From positions 124,001 through 188,000 of the forward strand of contig MTMO01000002.1 in assembly GCA_002011235.1 (NCBI GenBank): 64,000 bases of DNA, given 5' to 3'. Positions 2,810 through 4,340 of the stretch are shown here, piece after piece. Origin of the DNA: Archaeoglobus sp. JdFR-27 (GTDB lineage: Archaea; Halobacteriota; Archaeoglobi; Archaeoglobales; Archaeoglobaceae). The notes under the pieces are model-generated. The model worked only from the letters and a program-made list of their open reading frames with translations. It was not told the origin of the DNA and did not search any database. Position numbers and translations under genes: made by a program. The number at the start of each line of letters is the position of its first letter. Position 1 is the stretch's first letter.

Positions 2810-4039
2810 TTACAGGAAATCCAATCCTCTAACACTCAGTTTTGATGCTTTTAGGGGTTTTACCTTAGTTCTTACTCTCGTTGCGGTTGCCGTGTAGGTT
2901 TTTGTTGTTCTTGAAGGGGTTCCCACTTTTACCTCAGCTCTTTTCTGGGGCTTTGAAAATATTCTATCATCGTAGGCGGAGCTGCTCTTTGTAAAGCTCT
3001 TGAAGGTCAGAGACTCCTTTGCAATTACATTCGGTGATGTTACTCCGGTCATAATCGCCATGACCCTCACGCATCCCTCAAGTTCGTTGGAGATCCTTGC
3101 CCCCCAGATAACGTTTGCAGTGCTGTCTATCTCGAAGGTTAGATTTTCAACGATCTCTTCTGCCTCCTTTATAGTCAGATCTGGTCCACCACTGATGTGA
3201 ATGAGTGAGCCTTTGGCTCCTCTATAATCAACCTCGAGCAAGGGATGATTCAGGCAGTCTTTAACCACGTCTTTCGCCTTTGACTGTGATTTAGCCTCGC
3301 CAACGAGCATCACAGCCACGCCTCCTTGACCCATGATTGCTCTGACATCTGCAAAGTCAATGTTCATGAGCGATGGCTTCGTTATCGTATCAGAGATTCC
3401 CTTGATCGTCTCAGCAACAAGCTGATCCATAACACTGAAAGCCTGCTCGATGGGAAGATTTGGAACGTATTCGAGCAGTTTGTTGTTATCCAACACAACT
3501 ACAGTGTCAGCATTCTTTCTCAGCTCTTCAAGCCCCTCCTCAGCCTTGAAGATCCTTGCCCTTTCAACCCTGAAGGGGGTTTGGACCATTCCTATAACGA
3601 TAGCTCCCTGCTTCTTTGCAATCTCGGCTATTACGGGCACACTCCCTGTGCCGGTTCCACCACCCATCCCGGCACAGACGAAAACTAGATCTGCCTCCTC
3701 AAGCAATTCTTCAATTGTACCTCTGGCAAGCTCGGCAGCTTTCCTGCCAATCTCGGGATAGCCGCCTGCACCCAATCCCTTCGTTAAAGTCCTACCTATC
3801 AAAACTTTCTTATCGGCCCTAATACTTAGGAGGTGTTGTTTGTCTGTGTTTATGGCAATCGTGTTTACTCCATCAACGCCAAGCTGCTTAAGCCTGTTTA
3901 TTGTGTTGTTCCCACTTCCACCACAGCCGACAACAACGATCCTTGGCAGTCCAAATTCCTCGATATCAAAGTTCTCGCTCATTCTTCTGTTTCTTTCCTC
4001 CTCATAAAACTTCTGGGCTTTACTAACAAACGACTTCAT
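2810..4039 (-). CDS. ftsZ2: Cell division protein FtsZ, FtsZ2 type
   Basis: The 409-residue tubulin-fold GTPase assembles the division ring. It has the N-terminal nucleotide loop [11 protein letters not shown], the tubulin signature GGGTGTGS, the T7-like region and the NxD-type synergy segment [14 protein letters not shown]. The segments [28 protein letters not shown] and [10 protein letters not shown] are those of the archaeal FtsZ2 clade rather than FtsZ1. The globular part is followed by a Thr/Lys-rich linker and a short C-terminal tail ending GLDFL, a likely binding site for a membrane partner. Its ribosome site GGAGG overlaps the stop codon of the upstream ribbon-helix-helix gene, so the two are translated from one transcript. 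Confidence 0.97.
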
Positions 4040-4052
4040 ACAAAATTCCTCC

Positions 4053-4226
4053 CTAAATATAAGAGTTAAGCCTCTGGCTCCTCTCTATTACCTCAACTTT
4101 CTCCGCAACCAACTTCCTGATCGCATCTCTAATCGCCTCACTAACTGAGGCGTACTCTCCCACCGTCACCAAAGCTTCAAGCATTTCATAATGCTGATCC
4201 GTTAGCCGAATCGATATTTTTCTCAT
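4053..4226 (-). CDS. cdrS: Ribbon-helix-helix regulator of ftsZ (CdrS-like)
   Basis: A 57-residue protein, [19 protein letters not shown] at its N-terminus, with the RHH layout: a beta strand (KISIRL), helix A, and helix B with [18 protein letters not shown]. This is the pattern of archaeal CdrS, a short RHH factor known in haloarchaea to control ftsZ2 and cell division. Its TAG stop merges with the GGAGG ribosome site of ftsZ and lies 13 bp before the ftsZ start, so the genes form an operon as in haloarchaea. Another ATG at 4230 is out of frame. It probably autoregulates through the paired palindromes at 4293-4323. Confidence 0.88.
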
Positions 4227-4239
4227 TCATATCCCTCTA

Positions 4240-4282
4240 CAGGAAGTGAGGGGTGGCGCACGGATTGCGAACGCCACCCACT
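4240..4282 (-). promoter_or_regulatory. Leader hairpin upstream of the RHH-ftsZ2 operon
   Basis: On the minus strand, AAGTG plus GGTGGCG pairs with CGCCACC plus CACTT, broken only by a three-base bulge, around a loop of about 13 bases. The GGGTGGCG arm is at 4251-4258 and the CGCCACCC arm at 4272-4279. It sits in the predicted 5' leader, about 15 bases before the ribosome site, so it could act in attenuation or translation control. That role is inference. Confidence 0.55.
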
Positions 4283-4292
4283 TGTACTCCTC

Positions 4293-4340
4293 TTGTCCGA
4301 CAATGTATGTCTATTGTCCGACATTATACTATTTAAAGAT
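4293..4340 (-). promoter_or_regulatory. Promoter and paired operator of the RHH-ftsZ2 operon
   Basis: Reading the minus strand, a TATA-like CTTTAAATAG lies at about 4330-4339. Between it and the predicted start, and just past it, the ten-base sequence TTGTCCGACA (plus strand) occurs twice, at 4293-4302 and 4314-4323, exactly 21 bp apart. Its core TGTCCGACA is palindromic around the central base. Two full sites two helical turns apart on the same face fit a cooperative RHH dimer pair, which is the expected binding mode for the adjacent regulator. Confidence 0.6.

Follow-up and report, generated by a model that had tools for sequence, protein, structure and literature searches.

The 57-aa ribbon-helix-helix (RHH) protein encoded upstream of ftsZ2 in the window (the whole 64-kb stretch of DNA that was analysed) is likely the Archaeoglobi orthologue of CdrS, with TGTCNGACA as its predicted operator and with autoregulation, probably repression, of cdrS-ftsZ2 as the ancestral circuit, as judged from sequence comparison. 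The comparison covered two phyla, Halobacteriota and Thermoplasmatota, and established the gene pair and an operator candidate that is conserved, phased and dependent on the presence of the RHH gene. The open literature searched yielded no published operator of this sequence, no CdrS autoregulation and no experiment on Archaeoglobi. Nor did it mention the phasing of the operator, its distribution across both phyla or the haloarchaeal switch.

Locus architecture and gene identities

The locus is read from the minus strand in the order TATA box, operator copy 1, predicted transcription start, operator copy 2, leader hairpin, cdrS-like gene, and ftsZ2. The TATA-like TTTAAATA (4330–4337), preceded by a BRE-like CCAAAATC, places the expected start near 4306 (predicted range 4304–4308, from a spacing of ~24 nt after this box), between the two palindrome copies. 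Copy 1 of TGTCCGACA (4315–4323) lies between the TATA box and the predicted start, at a distance of 14 bp from where that box begins, and copy 2 (4294–4302) lies 21 bp further downstream; each is part of a TTGTCCGACA repeat (4314–4323 and 4293–4302, respectively). These coordinates confirm the initial annotation, which had described two identical palindromes 21 bp apart, behind a TATA box and on either side of the predicted start. The cdrS-like gene (4053–4226) is preceded by the ribosome site AGAGGG (4233–4238), and its stop codon TAG (4053–4055) overlaps the ftsZ2 ribosome site GGGAGG (4048–4053), so that the stop is indeed fused to that site, as had been proposed. The ftsZ2 gene extends over 2810–4039, with its start codon at 4037–4039.

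The RHH protein was identified by profile search and with an AF2 model. It consists of a single small RHH domain (Pfam RHH_1, 29.1 bits, cut-off 20.5), and the model showed the RHH shape with a pLDDT of 88.8. Its best NCBIfam match, also the top match in the library, was the CdrS model NF058555 at 35.8 bits, under the cut-off of 100; synteny and similarity are therefore the grounds on which the protein is called a CdrS orthologue, and membership of that equivalog is not claimed. The short name of this model, TransRegCdrSHalo, suggests that it was built for haloarchaea. The synteny is close to complete within the class, the RHH gene being located directly upstream of ftsZ2 in 50 of the 52 Archaeoglobi loci. 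In the strand predicted to contact DNA, residues K3, R7, and T9 were invariant among 27 Archaeoglobi proteins, and S5 was nearly so.

The nearest solved folds in a Foldseek search were ParD-type RHH antitoxins, with E-values that are weak for so small a protein. The partner here, in contrast to ParD, CopG, Arc, and omega, is a division protein, and a role as a type II toxin–antitoxin antitoxin (ParD) was rejected because the adjoining gene is ftsZ2 and no toxin gene accompanies it.

The downstream gene matched TIGR00065 with 432 bits. Its product was ~60–72% identical to the products of cdrS-adjacent ftsZ genes in other Halobacteriota and 94% identical to FtsZ2 of the closest class-mate; the host genome is of the Archaeoglobus type. 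The other FtsZ of the genome was 63–66% identical to the haloarchaeal FtsZ1 loci but only ~46% identical to cdrS-linked FtsZ. The gene downstream of cdrS is, on the basis of orthology, assigned to FtsZ2.

Conservation and helical phasing of the palindrome

The ftsZ2 upstream region was obtained from 52 genomes of the class, 50 of which carried the RHH gene. At least one perfect TGTCNGACA was found upstream of that gene in all 50, against a chance expectation of 0.1–0.6% estimated by dinucleotide shuffling; conservation in related genomes, the test set beforehand to refute the reading, was thus seen in every case. The two remaining Archaeoglobi genomes had no RHH gene, either at the locus or elsewhere (E ≤ 1e-6), and no palindrome. 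The middle base was C or G in 66 of 68 perfect Archaeoglobi copies. The operator first proposed, TGTCCGACA, holds for Archaeoglobi; in its general form it reads TGTCNGACA. In promoters with a recognisable TATA box, the distance from the start of that box to the start of the first copy was 13–29 bp: 13–14 bp, as in the window, in approximately half of the Archaeoglobi and 25–29 bp in most others.

The sequence is rare outside this promoter. The window contained exact TTGTCCGACA copies at the two promoter positions only, and the 2.36-Mb genome contained 5 exact palindrome matches at 5 places, the 3 outside the window all being inside ORFs. Across 31 genomes, TTGTCSGACAA occurred about once or twice per genome. 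No perfect site was found in the ftsZ1 promoters of 20 Archaeoglobi or at the remaining RHH genes of the host genome. A broad Archaeoglobi regulon was rejected, since the examined TTGTCSGACAA matches outside cdrS were mostly intragenic and the ftsZ1 promoters were empty. SegB and aCcr1 of Sulfolobales are likewise RHH proteins with links to the cell cycle in archaea, and the segB promoter itself contains SegB sites (PMC12284271). However, the SegB motif, TCTAGASTCTAGA, is found at dozens of chromosomal sites, whereas the Archaeoglobi palindrome is nearly confined to one promoter.

Beyond the class, the RHH gene was followed by ftsZ at every one of 40 further Halobacteriota loci. The suggestion that the linkage with ftsZ2 is older than haloarchaea is correct, although its occurrence outside haloarchaea had already been published by Darnell 2020 (PMC7439475). 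A perfect TGTCNGACA was present upstream of the RHH gene in 26 of the 31 non-halophilic Halobacteriota outside Archaeoglobi and at 16 of the 20 Thermoplasmatota cdrS-ftsZ loci, and imperfect copies only were found in 5 and 4, respectively. The non-halophilic Halobacteriota carried arrays of TGTC(A/T)GACA, and named methanogen or ANME relatives and one Thermoplasmata record behaved in the same way. In some methanogen relatives, up to approximately eight copies spanned the region from the TATA box to the start codon in an 11-bp phase.

The extra copies were stepped by 10/11, 21/22, and 32/33 bp. Near-site autocorrelation in the 31 Halobacteriota outgroups counted lags of 11, 22, 33, 44, and 55 bp 55, 56, 43, 28, and 21 times, respectively, where ~0.1 was expected for each; in Archaeoglobi, lags of 10, 11, 21, and 32 bp were counted 16, 25, 21, and 13 times. 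Such sharp peaks at helical steps place the copies on the same side of the DNA helix. RHH autoregulators such as ParD, CopG, Arc, and omega bind as dimers to phased palindromes over their own promoters, and the cdrS promoter was likewise found to carry palindromes in helical phase. By analogy with other RHH operators, this phasing suggests that RHH dimers would bind cooperatively.

At one Thermoplasmata locus, the RHH gene before ftsZ encodes two tandem RHH domains in 106 aa, resembling a built-in dimer. Similar double RHH matches were observed in four further genomes (G417, G372, G338, and G334).

Haloarchaeal ftsZ1 and cdrS promoters

Haloarchaeal CdrS resembles the window protein in being a small RHH protein encoded directly upstream of ftsZ2 that regulates division genes. 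The Archaeoglobi site, however, is located at cdrS-ftsZ2 and not at ftsZ1, whereas a 20-nt tandem of the 9-mer was found in 9/9 haloarchaeal ftsZ1 promoters, with 10 to 12 of the 12 core letters. The tandem has a fixed place upstream of the TATA box, its 10th nucleotide being 56–58 nt before the ATG. CdrS of H. volcanii was mapped by ChIP-seq at ftsZ1, at −50 counted from the 10th nucleotide of the motif (PMC8406309). The haloarchaeal tandem lies at about the same distance, and the symmetric motif reported there would fit the same 9-mer in tandem; the published ChIP motif probably contains a related motif. Perfect tandem pairs numbered 25 in eight haloarchaeal genomes, versus 0 for a reversed control pattern. 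Among these pairs were ones at ftsZ1 and at the promoter of a haloarchaeal tubulin-like (cetZ-type) gene, where the perfect CdrS-type tandem precedes the start codon. General conservation of the H. volcanii CdrS targets across haloarchaea was rejected, as the tandem motif was found at dacZ in 3/10 cases and at none of the proteasome genes.

The haloarchaeal cdrS promoters differ from those of Archaeoglobi. A perfect site was found in 0/9, and these promoters instead carried GTAAGAC/GTCTTAC pairs 11–12 bp apart, one base from the 9-mer. In the 200 bp upstream of nine haloarchaeal cdrS genes (L147–L155), GTAAGAC-N4/5-GTCTTAC was a shared element just 3' of the TATA box, often with a further GTCTTAC before the start codon. 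This element is a candidate operator of CdrL, which was found on the cdrS-ftsZ2 promoter in Halobacterium and has been reported from haloarchaea only (PMC7439475). The cdrS promoter is not among the 18 sites of the H. volcanii CdrS ChIP list (PMC8406309). It is plausible that control of the haloarchaeal cdrS promoter passed to CdrL and that CdrS shifted to ftsZ1 and further genes.

A search for a viral CdrS mimic with its operator gave three RHH matches in viral sequences. The match on one viral contig (IMGVR_UViG_3300046060_000019) is a CdrS-like protein of haloarchaeal type, which might serve to influence division of the host; only 1-mismatch sites were found there.

Proposed circuit and alternative readings

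We propose that CdrS dimers would bind the phased 9-mer copies, which run from behind the TATA box past the start site into the leader, and, once bound, would hinder transcription initiation at cdrS-ftsZ2. The resulting negative feedback would hold the levels of CdrS and FtsZ2 steady, balancing both together. Physical binding, cooperative dimer–dimer contact, and repression rather than activation are the elements that we infer; as regards the last, the position of the copies, between the TATA box and the start and in the leader, suggests repression of initiation. In haloarchaea, the perfect site is gone from the cdrS promoter, and a tandem form is present ahead of the ftsZ1 promoter, for which activation is suggested by published data.

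Points that count against this reading are the absence of the cdrS promoter from the H. volcanii ChIP list and the opposite sign of the effect on ftsZ2 in Halobacterium, where loss of CdrS lowers ftsZ2 (PMC7439475). The general lack of the tandem motif at dacZ and the proteasome genes and the outgroup loci with imperfect copies only (5 of 31 and 4 of 20) also weigh against it. The same protein and operator could instead serve activation of the operon by CdrS, for example by DNA bending or TBP/TFB recruitment, as the need for CdrS in Halobacterium ftsZ2 expression (PMC7439475) and the activation that accompanies H. volcanii CdrS sites upstream of promoters (PMC8406309) would favour. We nevertheless regard activation as unlikely, because the copies in Archaeoglobi and their methanogen relatives come after the TATA box and extend across the start and the leader, which is the usual place for repression; the haloarchaeal ftsZ1 site, in contrast, is upstream of the TATA box.

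Whether CdrS itself is the binding protein was addressed by the co-occurrence of site and gene. The site follows the RHH gene and not ftsZ. In 19 genomes without a CdrS match, representing seven families, neither the perfect site nor the RHH gene was found at any of the 20 ftsZ2 loci. The contrast between presence with CdrS and absence without it gave a Fisher p of 8e-17 before correction for relatedness, a value that overstates independence because the genomes are related. Within a single family (f5), members with CdrS carried the site and members without CdrS did not. Conversely, among eight Thermoplasmatota RHH genes without ftsZ within 1.5 kb, one of them near a contig end, the site was present in seven. 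A third comparison that points to CdrS is the agreement of the haloarchaeal ftsZ1 tandem with the mapped CdrS position in H. volcanii. As the palindrome is kept in almost all relatives with CdrS and missing where CdrS was lost, CdrS most likely binds it and controls cdrS and ftsZ2. A different regulator, controlling the operon by coincidence, might bind the palindromes instead, given the RHH paralogues in the genome and the presence of CdrL on the Halobacterium cdrS-ftsZ2 promoter (PMC7439475), but this is highly improbable: the site vanishes with the cdrS gene in several families and is retained at RHH genes unlinked to ftsZ, CdrL is reported from haloarchaea only, and the promoters of the RHH paralogues lack a perfect site.

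Six of the Thermoplasmatota CdrS-like genes away from ftsZ (L332, L334–L336, L343, and L349) were noted to carry TGTCNGACA, and several had a AGAGGTCTA-like element between TGTCNGACA and the start codon.

The leader of the window contains a hairpin (4251–4279; arms 4251–4258 and 4272–4279; RNA fold z = −2.3). It had been described as a 12-bp hairpin; the hairpin is present, but its uninterrupted stem is 8 bp, reaching ~12 bp only with a bulge. The cdrS leaders were often structured, with a mean z of −1.9 and z < −1.5 in 27/47. In one Archaeoglobi clade (13 sequences), 7/13 pairs of a 13-bp stem were changed on both sides, above all 500 shuffles. The window stem is analogous to this sister-clade stem but not alignable with it, and no significant Rfam match was found for the leader. 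A cdrS leader stem-loop was also noted at L036–L049 and L057; in one Archaeoglobi clade, compensatory changes have preserved the stem despite a divergent sequence, and a degenerate copy of the operator overlaps with it. Control at the RNA level by the conserved leader (through the hairpin, a protein, or the ribosome), with the palindromes as a by-product of RNA structure, would accord with these common stems and paired changes but has almost no likelihood, since copy 1, being located before the predicted start, would not be transcribed, 10–11 bp phasing is a property of DNA, and the leader sequence and stem vary between genera while the 9-mer is constant.

The autorepression circuit may also be extended, although the idea is speculative and probably wrong: the 11-bp phased array might nucleate a CdrS filament that switches the supply of FtsZ2 in a cooperative, dose-counting manner, and might perhaps act as a chromosome-linked marker tying division to replication, as in plasmid RHH partition proteins.

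Most of what is known about how archaea control FtsZ-based division comes from two salt-loving species. Our analysis provides a concrete candidate for the CdrS operator and predicts an ancestral feedback circuit common to Halobacteriota and Thermoplasmatota, from which haloarchaea appear to have switched to control of ftsZ1 instead of self-control. The same arrays are carried by genetically tractable methanogens.
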